Assembly: GCA_036504035.1 (NCBI GenBank)
Contig: DASXVV010000011.1
Location: 135,611 to 199,610 of the forward strand
DNA length: 64,000 nucleotides
Reading direction: 5' to 3'
Source: Candidatus Deferrimicrobiaceae bacterium
Lineage (GTDB): Bacteria > Desulfobacterota > Deferrimicrobia > Deferrimicrobiales > Deferrimicrobiaceae
In this document: one piece after another, positions 19,074 to 25,153 of the stretch
Layout: every line of letters begins with the position of its first letter
How positions within the stretch are numbered: position 1 is the stretch's first letter
The notes under the pieces: model-generated
What the model was told of the DNA's origin: nothing
The model's input: the letters and a program-made list of their open reading frames with translations, nothing else
The model's database searches: none
Position numbers and translations under genes: made by a program

Positions 19074-20321
19074 TCACAGGCCGATGAACAGATGCTTTGC
19101 CTCGGCGCATTCCCTTGAAGAAAGACCGTTGGCTTTGGCGACGGCCTCCCATCCCGAGACGGTCGTTCGAATCCTGTCCACGATCTGCATCGCGCGCAGT
19201 TTCGCCAGTCGATAACCCGGCGCCGTCGAAAGGACGGTCTCGAGATCCGGTCGCCTCTCGTCGAGGTCGAGCGCAAGGACGTGTTCCCGCTTCGCGAAAG
19301 ACGGGTTCATGTCGAACGCCGGCGCCAACCGCCATCCCGCCGGGGTACGGAACATGCCGTGGTTTCTAAGGTGGTCGTCCCGGTTGGCCACGCACACGTT
19401 GAAGATGACGCGGGTGAAGAGTTCGGCAAGATCGTCTTCTAGACGTTCCGGATCCGCATAGGAGGAAAGGAACTCGGCGATTTCGAGATAACTCGCGTCA
19501 TCCGAATCGTTTCGCCCGAGGAGCGTCATCGCGGACGCGTAGAAACGTCGCCGGATACCGACCCGGTCGAACCGTTCGACAAGGAATGTCCGATACCCTT
19601 TCCCGACCCGCATCAACCGCGCTTCGGGCACGTCCAGGCCGCATTGCCGGGCCAGGTCATGGACGACCTTTTCCCAAGCGGCGACATCGTGGTCATCGTC
19701 CGCAGCGGGGAATTTCGCGATCCACAATCTTCCGTTTTCCGCGACGACGTTCGCCTTCGGCCTGGCTCCACCGAGCGAGGAACCTGGCGCTACGAGCACT
19801 TCGAGCCACTCCCGGAGACGCGCCGAGTCCGTATCGGCGCCCTCCTTTCGGCTCAACTCATGCGCGACGGCCTGCAATTCGGCGATGCGGGCGATGGGCG
19901 GAGCGGATCGCAGTTCGCTCGCAAGAAACACGCGCGTTCCGGCCGTGGCAAAACGGAGGGCGCCCGTCCGCGTCTCGTCCTGGATGCCGAGAAGAAAATC
20001 CCAGGGGCCGAGGGTTCTCGCCTTGCGCCCCTCTTCCTCGGCCTCGATCGCCTCCCGGCGCCTCATCAGCAACTGTCCCCACCGATCCGGGCAGGAATCC
20101 ATGAAGACGCCGAAGTTCGACTTGCCGGGGTAGAAGATCCCGGGGGACAGATCGAGTTCCGGGTCGAGTGGAAAGGCATGCGCCGCGGCAAGCCACGCCG
20201 CGTCGTAAGCGAAACGGATGCTTCCCCGGTCACCCTGCGAGAGAACGCCGATCCGCTGAAGCGGACCGAAAGAGGGATCGTCCAGCCAGACGTCGACCTG
20301 CGTCGGTTTAGATGGCGTCAT
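19074..20321 (-). CDS. hipA: HipA-like serine/threonine kinase toxin
   Basis: A 415-residue HipA-family protein. HipA kinases phosphorylate targets such as glutamyl-tRNA synthetase and stop growth. Family marks: N-terminal GIFYPGKSNFGVFMDSCPDRWG, the phosphate-binding loop GSSLGGARPKA around residue 180, catalytic ANRDDHLRNHG near 315 and the metal-binding AFDMNPS near 335. All expected active-site residues appear present, so it may be active. ATG 20321 overlaps the antitoxin stop (ATGA). It lies at the right end of the island, next to the attachment repeat. Confidence 0.9.
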   Translation of the reverse strand: MTPSKPTQVDVWLDDPSFGPLQRIGVLSQGDRGSIRFAYDAAWLAAAHAFPLDPELDLSPGIFYPGKSNFGVFMDSCPDRWGQLLMRRREAIEAEEEGRKARTLGPWDFLLGIQDETRTGALRFATAGTRVFLASELRSAPPIARIAELQAVAHELSRKEGADTDSARLREWLEVLVAPGSSLGGARPKANVVAENGRLWIAKFPAADDDHDVAAWEKVVHDLARQCGLDVPEARLMRVGKGYRTFLVERFDRVGIRRRFYASAMTLLGRNDSDDASYLEIAEFLSSYADPERLEDDLAELFTRVIFNVCVANRDDHLRNHGMFRTPAGWRLAPAFDMNPSFAKREHVLALDLDERRPDLETVLSTAPGYRLAKLRAMQIVDRIRTTVSGWEAVAKANGLSSRECAEAKHLFIGL

Positions 20322-20656
20322 CCGGATTCGCCTTCGGTGATCGGCTTCCTTTTCGGGGCGCGCTTTCTGCGGGGAAGCGATTCGTCCTGGAGGCGTCGCC
20401 CGAGCGCGTCTTCCTTCGCGACCAAGGCCAGATCGTCGATGAGGGCCAGCACGCGAAGGACATTGACATAGGCCCCGAACGATACGGACGGGTCGCCGGA
20501 TTCAATCTTCGCCAGGGTCGGCTTCGAGATGCCGGCCCGGACGCAGACGACATCCATCGAAAAGCGCCTGCGCAGGCGGGCGTCCCTCAGGCGCTCGCCG
20601 AGGGCGCCGGCCTCCTTCATGGACTTTGGATAGAGCACGGGGGTTATTTTTGCCAT
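20318..20656 (-). CDS. hipB: HipB-like Xre-family antitoxin
   Basis: A 112-residue DNA-binding protein with a helix-turn-helix of the Xre type (LGERLRDARLRRRFSMDVVC, then GISKPTLAKIESG) and a Lys/Arg-rich C-terminal tail (RRKRAPKRK). It should neutralise the HipA-like kinase and repress its own operon. It precedes hipA with an ATGA overlap. The ATG lies next to palindromic AT-rich sequence that may be its operator. Confidence 0.88.
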   Translation of the reverse strand: MAKITPVLYPKSMKEAGALGERLRDARLRRRFSMDVVCVRAGISKPTLAKIESGDPSVSFGAYVNVLRVLALIDDLALVAKEDALGRRLQDESLPRRKRAPKRKPITEGESG

Positions 20657-21833: not shown

Positions 21834-21875
21834 AAAAAGAAAAGCGCCGCCCCCGGAGAAGAAGCCCCTCCGGGG
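21834..21875 (-). terminator. Terminator of the isc-like operon
   Basis: CCCCGGAG (21851-21858) and CTCCGGGG (21868-21875) form an 8-base-pair stem. On the minus strand it is followed by GCGGCGC and then TTTTCTTTTT. It lies about 20 bases after the last ferritin-like gene. Confidence 0.7.
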
Positions 21876-21895
21876 ACAGGCGTCTGAAACCGCGG

Positions 21896-22093
21896 CTAGT
21901 TTTCTTGGTAGACTTCCTTCTCGAGCTCTTCCTGAAGCAGCTTGACGTGCTTCTTCTCTTCTTCGACCAGGAACGCGAACATCTCCTTGATCGAATCGTT
22001 TTCGGCGGTCATGGCAAATTCCTTGTAATACTGGACGGCGTCCTTCTCGCGCGCGAGCGCCATCTTGAGAACATCGATCGGGGTCTTGGTCAT
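21896..22093 (-). CDS. Ferritin-like half-domain protein, 65 residues (second copy)
   Basis: A 65-residue all-helical protein related to rubrerythrin and ferritin-like domains. It holds only two helices: EKDAVQYYKEFA and FLVEEEKKHVKLLQEEL, the second with the ExxH metal ligands (EEKKH). A full diiron site would need a dimer, as in encapsulated-ferritin-type proteins. It is the last gene of the operon, behind iscU, with GGAGG before the ATG. It is similar in length and layout to the 23739-23936 protein. Possible roles are iron delivery, iron storage or peroxide protection near Fe-S assembly. Confidence 0.8.
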   Translation of the reverse strand: MTKTPIDVLKMALAREKDAVQYYKEFAMTAENDSIKEMFAFLVEEEKKHVKLLQEELEKEVYQEN

Positions 22094-22115: not shown

Positions 22116-22499
22116 TTATGCGGGATGTTTCTTGCTGTAGTCGTCGAGCGCCGCCTTCACCGCTTCCTCGGCCATCACTGAACAGTGGATCTTGACCTCG
22201 GGCAACCCGCCCAGCGCCTCGGAAACCTGCGTATTGGTGATTGCGCGCGCCTCGTCGATCGTTTTGCCCTTGATCATCTCGGTCAGCATCGAGCTGGAAG
22301 CGATCGCCGCCCCGCAGCCGAAGGTGCGGAACTTGGCGTCGGCCACCTTGCCGCTGTCGACCTTGACGTAGAGCCGCATCATGTCGCCGCAAGCCGGGTT
22401 GCCGACCTCGCCGACGCCGTCGGCGTTTTCGATCTCGCCCACGTTGCGCGGATTCATGAAATGATCCATCACCTTTTCGGTATACGGCCCGCTGGCCAT
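22116..22499 (-). CDS. iscU: Iron-sulfur cluster scaffold IscU/NifU N-terminal type
   Basis: A 127-residue scaffold on which [2Fe-2S]/[4Fe-4S] clusters are built. All three cluster cysteines and the Asp are visible: NPACGDMM, FGCGAAIAS and KIHCSVMAE. The N-terminal MDHFMNPRNVGEIENADG is the standard opening. ATG 22499 follows AAGGAGG and starts two bases after the iscS stop. The usual LPPVK chaperone motif reads LPEVK here. Confidence 0.94.
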   Translation of the reverse strand: MASGPYTEKVMDHFMNPRNVGEIENADGVGEVGNPACGDMMRLYVKVDSGKVADAKFRTFGCGAAIASSSMLTEMIKGKTIDEARAITNTQVSEALGGLPEVKIHCSVMAEEAVKAALDDYSKKHPA

Positions 22500-22501
22500 G
22501 A

Positions 22502-23716
22502 TCAGCCTCCTTGGCTTGCCTGCTGTTTCTGGTAATCGAGCCACGTAGGCGACATCTCGCGCAGGCGCGAGACGATCGTCGGAAGCACCGAGAGGACGTG
22601 GTCGACCTCGGCGTCGCTGTTGTCCTTGCCCAGGCTGAAGGTCACCGACCCGGTGCAGATGTCGCTGGGAACGCCGATCGCCTTGAGCACCGTGGACGCC
22701 ACGAGGTCTTCCTCGTCGTGCCCTCGCAGGTTGGAGCTGCACGCCGACCCGGACGCGGCCATCACGCCCTGCATGTTGAGCAGCAGGAGCAGCGATTCGC
22801 CCTCGGCGTGCTCGACCCAGAAGCTGACGTGCCCCGGGAGCCGGTCGGTCGGGTGTCCCGTGAAATGGAGCAGCGGGATGGAATCGCCCAGGCCTTTCCA
22901 GAGCCGGCGGCCCATCGGCGCCAGCTTCTCGGCCCAGCCGGCGCTCTCGGCCGTGGCGATTTCGGCCGCAGCCGCCATTCCCACGATGCCGGGGACGTTT
23001 TCGGTGCCCGCACGGTAGCCACCCTCCTGGAATCCGCCGTCGATCAGCGATTCGAGCCGGGTTCCCTTGCGGACGTAAAGCGCCCCGATGCCTTTGGGGC
23101 CGTAGAAATTGTGGGCCGAGAGGGTGAGCAGGTCGGCGCCGATCGCCTCGACGTCGACCGGGATATGACCGGCCGACGCGGTGGCATCGGTGTGGAAAAG
23201 GACGCCCCGCTCGCGTGCGATTCGGCCGATCTCGGCGACGGGCTGGATCGTGCCGATCTCGGCGTTGGCGTGCATGACCGAGACGAGCACCGTATCGGGC
23301 CGGATCGCCTTGCGGACGGCATCGGGGTCGACCTTGCCGTCGCGGTCGACGTGGAGCGTCGTGATCTCGTACCCCGCGGCACGAAGCGGAAGCAGCGCGT
23401 TGAGGACCGAGAAGTGCTCGACTTCGGACACGACGATGTGGCGCCCCTTCTTCGAACCGGCGCCGGCAGCCCCCTTGATGGCCAGGTTGTTCGCCTCGGT
23501 CGCACCGGAGGTGAAGACGATCTCGCCGGGCTGCGCGTTGACCAGCTTCGCTACCGTGCCCCGCGACGCATCGAGCGTGCGTACCGCCGTCTGTCCCTGG
23601 TCGTGGATGTGCGAAGACGGGTTCCCGTACTTCTCGCTGAAGTACGGCAGCATCGCCTCAATCACCCGCGGGTCGACAGGGGTGGTGGATATGTGGTCGA
23701 AGAAAATGTGCGCCAT
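22502..23716 (-). CDS. iscS: Cysteine desulfurase-like protein (IscS/NifS family) lacking the PLP lysine
   Basis: A 404-residue fold-type I protein aligned throughout with IscS. It keeps the catalytic cysteine loop (SGSACSS near residue 325) and the PLP-stacking His (SEVEHFSV), but the Schiff-base lysine in SGHKIYGPKG is Asn (SAHNFYGPKG). Other conserved cofactor or substrate contacts also differ: NNEIG reads NAEIG, DATQS reads DATAS, and the Arg that holds the cysteine carboxylate (SIRFSLG) is Thr (SVTFSLG). It is full-length, in frame and in an operon with iscU. Either a changed mechanism or a scaffold-only role is likely; another true desulfurase may exist elsewhere. Confidence 0.9.
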   Translation of the reverse strand: MAHIFFDHISTTPVDPRVIEAMLPYFSEKYGNPSSHIHDQGQTAVRTLDASRGTVAKLVNAQPGEIVFTSGATEANNLAIKGAAGAGSKKGRHIVVSEVEHFSVLNALLPLRAAGYEITTLHVDRDGKVDPDAVRKAIRPDTVLVSVMHANAEIGTIQPVAEIGRIARERGVLFHTDATASAGHIPVDVEAIGADLLTLSAHNFYGPKGIGALYVRKGTRLESLIDGGFQEGGYRAGTENVPGIVGMAAAAEIATAESAGWAEKLAPMGRRLWKGLGDSIPLLHFTGHPTDRLPGHVSFWVEHAEGESLLLLLNMQGVMAASGSACSSNLRGHDEEDLVASTVLKAIGVPSDICTGSVTFSLGKDNSDAEVDHVLSVLPTIVSRLREMSPTWLDYQKQQASQGG

Positions 23717-23738: not shown

Positions 23739-23936
23739 CTATTCGGTAATGTTGAACTCGGCCATCTTGTCCTTGATCAGCTTGATGTGCCGCTTCTCTT
23801 CCTCGGCCAGGAACGTGAACATGGCCTTGACGGCGGGGTTGGAGGCGTCGGCGGACTCCCGCTGGTACTCTCCGTAATTTTCCGCCTCGATCTGCAGCGC
23901 TCTTTCCAGAACTTCCTTGATCGTCCAGTCCGGCAT
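23739..23936 (-). CDS. Ferritin-like half-domain protein, 65 residues (first copy)
   Basis: A 65-residue two-helix protein: EVLERALQIEAENYGEYQRE and FTFLAEEEKRHIKLIKDKM. Glu residues in the first helix and EExxRH in the second are placed as diiron ligands of half a ferritin-like bundle. ATG 23936 follows GGAGG. It opens the operon (this gene-iscS-iscU-second ferritin-like gene) and lies 22 bases upstream of iscS. An open frame continues upstream but without coding features. Confidence 0.8.
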   Translation of the reverse strand: MPDWTIKEVLERALQIEAENYGEYQRESADASNPAVKAMFTFLAEEEKRHIKLIKDKMAEFNITE

Positions 23937-24079: not shown

Positions 24080-24631
24080 ATGAAGAAAGAGCACCTGGTG
24101 ATGGCAGTGGCGCTGGTCGTTGTGTTCGTCGCGGCCGTCTTTTTCTATAGCCGCTGGCAGCGCGGGAGCGGGACCCCTTCCGTTCCACAGCCCGGGGCGG
24201 CGACACCGGCCGGCGGCCAGATGGCCCCGTCGTTCACCCTGAAGGACGTCCAGGGCAACCCCTTCGATTCGGCCACGCTGATGGGCAAGCCCACCGTGAT
24301 CAATTTCTTCGCCACCTGGTGCCCCCCGTGCCGCGGCGAGATCCCCGGCTTCGTCGAAGTCTTCGAGAAATACAAGGGCCAAGGGTTCGCGATGGTCGGC
24401 ATCTCGGTCGACAGCGACACGCGCGACAAGCTGCCGTCCTTCGTCGCCGAGCAGAAGATCACCTACCCGGTGTTGCTGGGAGGCGATGGGGCCACGGCCA
24501 AGGCATACGGCGGCGTCAGCGCGATCCCCACCACGTTTTTCGTGGGACGGGACGGCGCCATCCGCAACGTCCACGTCGGCTTCATGGACAAGGCCGCCTT
24601 CGACCAGGAAGTTTCGAAGCTGCTCCAATAG
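24080..24631 (+). CDS. TlpA/ResA-like membrane-anchored thioredoxin
   Basis: A 183-residue protein with one N-terminal membrane anchor (HLVMAVALVVVFVAAVFF) and a periplasmic redoxin domain. The active site is ATWCPPCRGEIPGF near residue 80, and the cis-Pro loop is AIPTTFF. ResA/TlpA proteins reduce disulfides, typically of apocytochromes c, which fits a cell with the multiheme cytochrome at 29660. ATG 24080 follows CGGAGGG. It is transcribed divergently from the isc-like operon. Confidence 0.88.
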   Translation: MKKEHLVMAVALVVVFVAAVFFYSRWQRGSGTPSVPQPGAATPAGGQMAPSFTLKDVQGNPFDSATLMGKPTVINFFATWCPPCRGEIPGFVEVFEKYKGQGFAMVGISVDSDTRDKLPSFVAEQKITYPVLLGGDGATAKAYGGVSAIPTTFFVGRDGAIRNVHVGFMDKAAFDQEVSKLLQ

Positions 24632-24734: not shown

Positions 24735-24905
24735 TTACGCCGGGACGCAGGCACCGGTCGGGCAGACACCCGCGCAGGCGCCGCAATCGGTGCACGTCGC
24801 CGCGTCGATCTTGTAGATCGGGTCGCCTTCCGAGATGCACTGGACAGGGCATTCGGGCGCGCACGCGCCGCAAGCGATGCATTCTTCGGTGATCTTGTAA
24901 GCCAT
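24735..24905 (-). CDS. 2[4Fe-4S] bacterial-type ferredoxin
   Basis: A 56-residue protein, MAYKITEECIACGACAPECP to the end. It has two CxxCxxCxxxCP motifs: CIACGACAPECP and CTDCGACAGVCP, the standard ligand set for two [4Fe-4S] clusters. Ferredoxins of this size carry low-potential electrons in anaerobic metabolism. It is preceded by GGGGGAAAGGAA and sits 29 bases after the NifU-C domain gene, so the two are probably co-transcribed. Confidence 0.95.
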   Translation of the reverse strand: MAYKITEECIACGACAPECPVQCISEGDPIYKIDAATCTDCGACAGVCPTGACVPA

Positions 24906-24934: not shown

Positions 24935-25153
24935 TTAGACCTGTTCAACCCGCTCGACCGCGGGGATCTCCCGCTTGAGCGTGGCTTCGATGCCGCCCTT
25001 GAGTGTCATGGTCGCCATCGGGCAACCGCCGCACGCGCCGGTCAGGCGCACTTTCACGACGCCCCCTTCGACGTCGACAAGTTCGACATCGCCACCGTCG
25101 GCCTGCAGAGCCGGGCGGATTTTATCGAGCACTTTCTGGACTTCGGCCTTCAT
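24935..25153 (-). CDS. NifU C-terminal domain (Nfu-type) Fe-S carrier
   Basis: A 72-residue stand-alone Nfu domain: [22 protein letters not shown] and the CxxC cluster motif in [14 protein letters not shown]. Nfu proteins hold a [4Fe-4S] cluster at a dimer interface and pass it to targets; the neighbouring ferredoxin is an obvious candidate. It shares the region with the isc-like operon and TlpA-like gene, an iron-sulfur and redox neighbourhood. Confidence 0.92.

Follow-up and report, generated by a model that had tools for sequence, protein, structure and literature searches.

A full-length homologue of cysteine desulfurases in the class Deferrimicrobia, here named IscS*, lacks the PLP lysine, and we propose, at a probability of about 0.55, that it is a desulfurase-dead pseudo-desulfurase that docks IscU and provides Cys326 as a cluster ligand, possibly acting in addition as a persulfide relay. 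IscS* is an IscS/MisS-fold protein of 404 aa that is encoded by an intact ORF at 22502..23716 on the minus strand of the window, i.e., the whole 64,000-nucleotide stretch of contig DASXVV010000011.1 that was analyzed.

Residues and Predicted Structure of IscS*

As read in the window, the IscS* ORF consists of 404 codons with no internal stops. Alignment with Escherichia coli IscS, to which IscS* is ~42% identical, places Asn203 at the position of the Schiff-base Lys206, Ala180 at that of Gln183, Ala152 at that of Asn155 and Thr359 at that of Arg354, while Thr76 (T73), His104 (H101), Asp180 (D177) and Cys328 (C326) are kept, and Ser203 and His205 (E. coli numbering) are also retained. The alignment thus bears out an earlier, sequence-only reading of this DNA, which had reported the exchange of Lys for Asn, three further altered contacts and a retained catalytic Cys; not covered by that reading is an insertion of 7 residues that directly follows the Cys (CSSNLRGHDEEDLVAS) and is common to a supported sub-clade (15 rows, support 100). 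A further Lys-less IscS, found at a contig edge (L031 of genome G021), has a canonical-looking Cys loop (SSGSACTSGSLDPS) and is possibly the product of a chimeric assembly or of recombination.

IscS* is matched by the Pfam family of class V aminotransferases (PF00266, E 2.8e-79). Its scores lie below the NCBIfam equivalog cut-offs for NifS and IscS (FeS_nifS, 454.9 vs. 530.75; IscS, 370.3 vs. 643.2), a weak test given that the Lys-containing NifS of the same genome also falls just short (517.9). The AlphaFold model of IscS* has a pLDDT of 91 and a pTM of 0.90, and the only run with a pLDDT below 50, residues 327–332, is in the Cys loop. The top PDB matches to the model are human NFS1 complexes and the IscS-IscU complexes of Archaeoglobus fulgidus, including 4eb5 and 4eb7, with TM-scores of ~0.9 to IscS/NFS1. 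Of the features that characterize group I cysteine desulfurases, IscS* therefore has the IscS-like fold and a persulfide Cys in a mobile loop (Cys326, low pLDDT) but has lost the Schiff-base lysine (Asn203), Gln183 (Ala180) and Arg354 (Thr359).

In E. coli IscS, desulfurase activity is lost in both the K206A and the Q183E variants, while R354K alone stays active (PMC9978102), so that the loss of Arg is weaker evidence than the combined loss of Lys and Gln. Because both Lys and Gln are missing, cysteine desulfuration is not expected in IscS*, which, judged from its residues, is predicted to be without cysteine desulfurase activity. The annotation “cysteine desulfurase” that Lys-less IscS genes carry is probably wrong in many genomes.

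Conservation of the Gene

Orthologues of IscS* are found in ~20 related genomes at 67–91% identity, and the lysine is absent in all of them. In independent assemblies, orthologues from the same taxonomic family and from the second family of the class carry Asn or His at the Lys codon and Thr at the Arg position, and the dN/dS ratios among IscS* orthologues, 0.10–0.22, indicate purifying selection. A decaying pseudogene or a sequence error could account for the missing residues, and the loss of the gene from this locus in one relative, described below, shows that it can be lost; with concordant independent assemblies, full-length ORFs and dN/dS of 0.10–0.22, however, the chance of either is negligible in our judgment. 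Sequencing error, which the sequence-only reading had itself named as an explanation that would overturn its claim, is thereby excluded, and the loss is real.

The IscS*-IscU Gene Cluster

The IscU scaffold (127 aa; PF01592) is encoded at 22116..22499 on the minus strand, with 2 bp between the stop of IscS* and the start of its gene. Its ligands are canonical, with the equivalents of C37, D39, C63 and C106 kept and LPEVK in place of LPPVK, in agreement with the earlier description of an operon with a normal IscU. The pair is flanked on the same strand by genes for two 65-aa proteins: mini-ferritin A, a rubrerythrin-like two-helix protein (23739..23936), 22 bp upstream of IscS*, and the rubrerythrin/EncFtn-like mini-ferritin B (21896..22093), directly downstream of IscU. 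Both match Pfam rubrerythrin, B being also EncFtn-like, and ALxxE, a Tyr and EExxH are common to mini-ferritins A and B across 44 sequences. A terminator-like hairpin with a T-rich tail follows mini-ferritin B (21847..21879, minus strand; consensus match only) and likely marks the end of the operon. The same-strand upstream neighbors are a 56-aa 2x[4Fe-4S] ferredoxin (24738..24905) and a protein of the Nfu type, i.e., with a NifU C-terminal domain (24935..25153), which is possibly a cluster carrier.

Two other loci in the window were noted. A gene for a TlpA-like thioredoxin (24080-24631, plus strand) is divergent from the IscS*/IscU operon, and a TlpA-like gene is also found upstream of IscU in genome G018 (L190) and near IscS* in genome G024 (L210). 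At 19074-20656 on the minus strand, the ORFs read as a gene for a HipA-like kinase that is preceded by one for a HipB-like antitoxin.

The arrangement is conserved. Flanking of the IscS*-IscU pair by the two 65-aa ferritin-like proteins extends to nearly the whole class, in the order mini-ferritin A, IscS*, IscU, in some genomes a rubrerythrin, and mini-ferritin B, and in the full-length Deferrimicrobia loci sampled IscU is directly downstream of IscS*. Among 77 non-redundant Lys-less loci, IscU is located within 400 bp downstream in 45 and nearby in 17 more; 5 of the remaining 15 are interrupted by a contig edge. A counter-example is G018, in which IscU (L190:1915-2307) is downstream of the usual TlpA neighbor, IscS* and mini-ferritin A are absent at the locus and no Lys-less IscS is among the IscS homologues listed, although this genome is 88% complete and an IscS* copy elsewhere could be missed. 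Some lineages may thus do without IscS*, and this would fit an accessory role better than that of a sulfur source. The first Cys motif of the G018 IscU reads SPSCGDMT vs. NPACGDMM.

Fe-S and Sulfur Genes in the Genome

The IscS* genome (3.17 Mb, 14 contigs) is rated 100% complete, and genome-wide absences are based on family searches with controls. These searches found a single IscU/NifU_N match (PF01592), the one adjoining IscS*, and neither SufB/D nor an A-type carrier (0 matches to PF01521), and no second IscU-type or Suf scaffold was found in this genome. Among 26 genomes of the class, IscU is found in 24, mostly as a single copy, and SufB/D matches in only 3.

The sequence-only reading had called for a genome search for a second, canonical desulfurase. 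Lys-containing desulfurase homologues do occur elsewhere in the genome, and one of them is a NifS (L001) at a separate locus, with a short C-terminal tail and beside genes read as CysE, IscR and MnmA; a Lys-containing NifS beside CysE-IscR-MnmA is also found in sampled relatives. The comparison with a sulfide-rich cell, which the same reading had drawn, finds no support. Only one sulfite/nitrite reductase-type domain is found in the IscS* genome, and thus no DsrAB pair, and the Deferrimicrobia (MBNT15) have been described as iron reducers that are mostly capable of aerobic respiration and lack dissimilatory sulfate reduction (PMC9386147).

Phylogeny of the Lys-less Proteins

A scan of named genomes with the pattern [AG]H[HND]xYGPKG returned 28 stretches, including some from Zixibacteria, Nitrospirae, a Myxococcales MAG and archaea. 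The Deltaproteobacteria records among the matches are identical to genomes of the IscS* class, including CSP1-8 and FeB_35, which we take to belong to Deferrimicrobia; from kinship to these two, the IscS* genome is assigned to the class described in PMC9386147, whose text does not mention CSP1-8 by name. In a wider-phylum sample, many paralogues carry one of Q, P, S, T, A, L and M in place of the Lys. Across the main Lys-less group (72 sequences), no member has Lys206, Gln183 or Arg354, while Cys328 and Asp180 are each present in 72/72, His104 in 70/72, Thr76 in 58/72 and Ser203 in 57/72; among 49 Lys-containing type-I homologues, Lys, Arg and Cys are present in all and Gln in 43.

With the trait columns omitted, the tree contains one supported group in which 45 of 46 rows are Lys-less. 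The exception, L094, has Lys and Cys with Gln replaced by Ala and Arg by Gln, falls within or next to the Lys-less group, and may be an intermediate or have regained its Lys; L094 and L052 are from one genome. In the careful tree, the Lys-containing and A. fulgidus-type rows are split from the main Lys-less group (94/90), and the A. fulgidus-type sequences, in which Lys is replaced by Asp, cluster with Lys-containing archaeal IscS (98/98). The history of the Lys site on this tree comprises three changes, at least two of which are forced by supported branches, and a single Lys change suffices in 0% of 200 bootstrap trees. The lysine was lost at least twice, separately in the IscS* lineage and in A. 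fulgidus. A common origin with the A. fulgidus loss, given the 98/98 grouping and the bootstrap result, is unsupported by the trees. The parallel with A. fulgidus drawn by the sequence-only reading consequently stands for the residues lost, but IscS* is not simply of the A. fulgidus type.

IscS* is a member of a conserved lineage that is widespread in bacteria and archaea, including Deferrimicrobia, Zixibacteria, Nitrospirae, a myxobacterium and archaea, rather than a single odd protein. In an incomplete literature search of titles and abstracts, no description of the bacterial Lys-less clade or of its mini-ferritin neighbors was found. To our knowledge, there is no biochemistry for the bacterial Lys-less lineage.

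Several archaeal homologues have unusual arrangements. One (L053:6755-7873) has His at the Lys site and in the alignment also misses the catalytic Cys. Six loci of SZUA-158-group archaea have tandem IscS genes upstream of IscU, one with Lys (SAHKMYGPKG) and the other with Arg or His in its place, possibly a desulfurase/pseudo-desulfurase pair; several genomes of this group have a third IscS copy elsewhere, with Thr at the Lys site.

Proposed Mechanism and Alternatives

We propose that IscS*, a pseudo-desulfurase with the IscS/MisS fold, would no longer take sulfur from cysteine and would serve as a docking partner of IscU. The IscS* dimer would bind IscU, and the mobile loop would move Cys326 into the IscU assembly site, where it would complete the coordination of a forming [2Fe-2S] cluster, as seen in A. 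fulgidus IscS-IscU; Cys326 may additionally hand on persulfide sulfur. Sulfur would be generated elsewhere and arrive in the form of sulfide or persulfide, the separate canonical NifS being the simplest source, and the flanking mini-ferritins, going by gene neighborhood and motif, would probably store or supply iron. Both kinds of supply have counterparts in E. coli, in which H2S can feed IscU in vivo without IscS under anaerobic conditions (PMC13015791) and IscU can receive iron from YtfE, a di-iron protein (PMC8117158). What is under selection in the Lys-less lineage is the Cys loop and the linkage to IscU, and because these are kept and the A. fulgidus Cys is reported to be a cluster ligand, a docking and ligand role is favored.

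A different use of the same Cys is possible, though we hold it to be rather unlikely: persulfide formed on NifS (L001) would pass to Cys326 of IscS* and then to IscU. IscS* would in that case not donate a structural ligand but act as a dedicated sulfurtransferase adaptor, comparable in role to SufE/SufU. The invariant Cys and the flexible loop are consistent with such a relay, as are the Lys-containing NifS of the sampled relatives with its CysE-IscR-MnmA neighbors and the short tail of the NifS in the IscS* genome, and cysteine-derived sulfur may be needed in an organism that is not predicted to reduce sulfate (PMC9386147). NifS and IscS* are, however, encoded apart in Deferrimicrobia, an interface between them is not known, the A. 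fulgidus precedent is that of a cluster ligand, and a relay is unnecessary if NifS serves IscU directly. The tandem Lys-containing and Lys-less genes of several archaea would also suit a mixed dimer, in which IscS* joins a Lys-containing desulfurase subunit in an active heterodimer and the dead half only binds IscU; with the Deferrimicrobia NifS at a different locus and only ~43–47% identical to IscS*, we regard this as improbable.

The remaining alternative concerns the pocket, which might bind PLP, PMP or another ligand non-covalently for structure, sensing or a different reaction. Here the sequence-only reading, which argued for real loss of PLP chemistry, holds in part: the residues of lysine-based desulfuration are gone, but complete loss of PLP binding does not follow, as Asp180 and His104 are conserved in nearly every member of the main Lys-less group and Thr76 and Ser203 in most. 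E. coli IscS K206A still binds some PLP (PMC9978102), and the conservation of Asp180 and His104 points to an IscS* pocket in which PLP/PMP or some other ligand may still bind. The Lys position nevertheless drifts without constraint (N, Q, T, R, P, H, S, A, L or M), which together with the loss of Gln and Arg leaves no new conserved catalytic residue at those sites, and we give a ligand-based function as the main role of IscS* only a slim chance. Returning to the docking and ligand role, we suggest tentatively that in Deferrimicrobia and the wider bacterial and archaeal lineage IscU assembly would proceed with a dead IscS, sulfide or relayed persulfide and mini-ferritin iron donors, i.e., as a desulfurase-free MIS that arose apart from A. 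fulgidus.

Comparison with Known Systems

The kinds already known that come closest to IscS*-IscU are the IscS-IscU of A. fulgidus and MIS. A. fulgidus IscS (PDB 4eb5, 4eb7 and 4hvk; D199K mutant, 4r5f) shares with IscS* the fold, the IscU partner, the loss of Lys, the replacement of Gln by Ala, the loss of Arg and the retained Cys, its residues in the alignment being A176, D199, L347 and C321. The sequence-only reading had stated correctly that this protein lacks the lysine: the residue is D199 in 4eb5, with A176 for Gln and L347 for Arg as well, and A. fulgidus IscS is reported to have no desulfurase activity and to provide its Cys as a ligand of the IscU [2Fe-2S] cluster (PMC7585200). It differs from IscS* in three ways: the Lys is replaced by Asp, not Asn, the loop insertion is missing, and its branch is a separate one that lies within Lys-containing homologues of archaea. 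IscS1 of Methanosarcina acetivorans (MA0808) is likewise reported to be without the lysine and is encoded with IscU (PMC7585200), but it is archaeal, and its genome encodes three iscSU pairs, this one included, alongside a scaffold of the SufB/D type.

MIS (MisS and MisU) resembles the IscS* system in its adjacent IscS-like and IscU-like genes, the operon being without HscAB/IscA and the genome without an A-type carrier; MIS has been described with a cysteine desulfurase (PMC12192291), a function predicted to be lost here, where mini-ferritins are added. The SMS system (SmsBC) of methanogens is a precedent for sulfide-capable cluster assembly without a dedicated desulfurase (PMC12192291), but its scaffold is of the SufBC type and no SufB/D homologue was found in the IscS* genome. 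Canonical IscS/NifS share the fold and the Cys loop with IscS* and possess Lys206, Gln183, Asn155 and Arg354, all replaced in IscS*. The mini-ferritins A and B resemble the encapsulin-associated ferritins EncB/EncFtn in the two-helix E + ExxH pattern but are 65 aa long, are encoded with IscS*/IscU and score below the EncB family cut-offs.

Implications

Descriptions of Fe-S biogenesis usually begin with a PLP-dependent cysteine desulfurase. The exception in A. fulgidus could pass for the curiosity of one archaeon; at least two losses and a large Lys-less lineage indicate otherwise. In a complete-rated genome of a class described as reducing iron and not sulfate, a Lys-less IscS sits with the only IscU-type scaffold, which raises a general and testable question, namely how the body of IscS and its Cys serve IscU besides persulfide production. 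Because the catalytic residues are lost and the Cys is kept in a large bacterial and archaeal lineage, these results suggest that an IscS-type protein now aids cluster assembly without producing sulfur itself.
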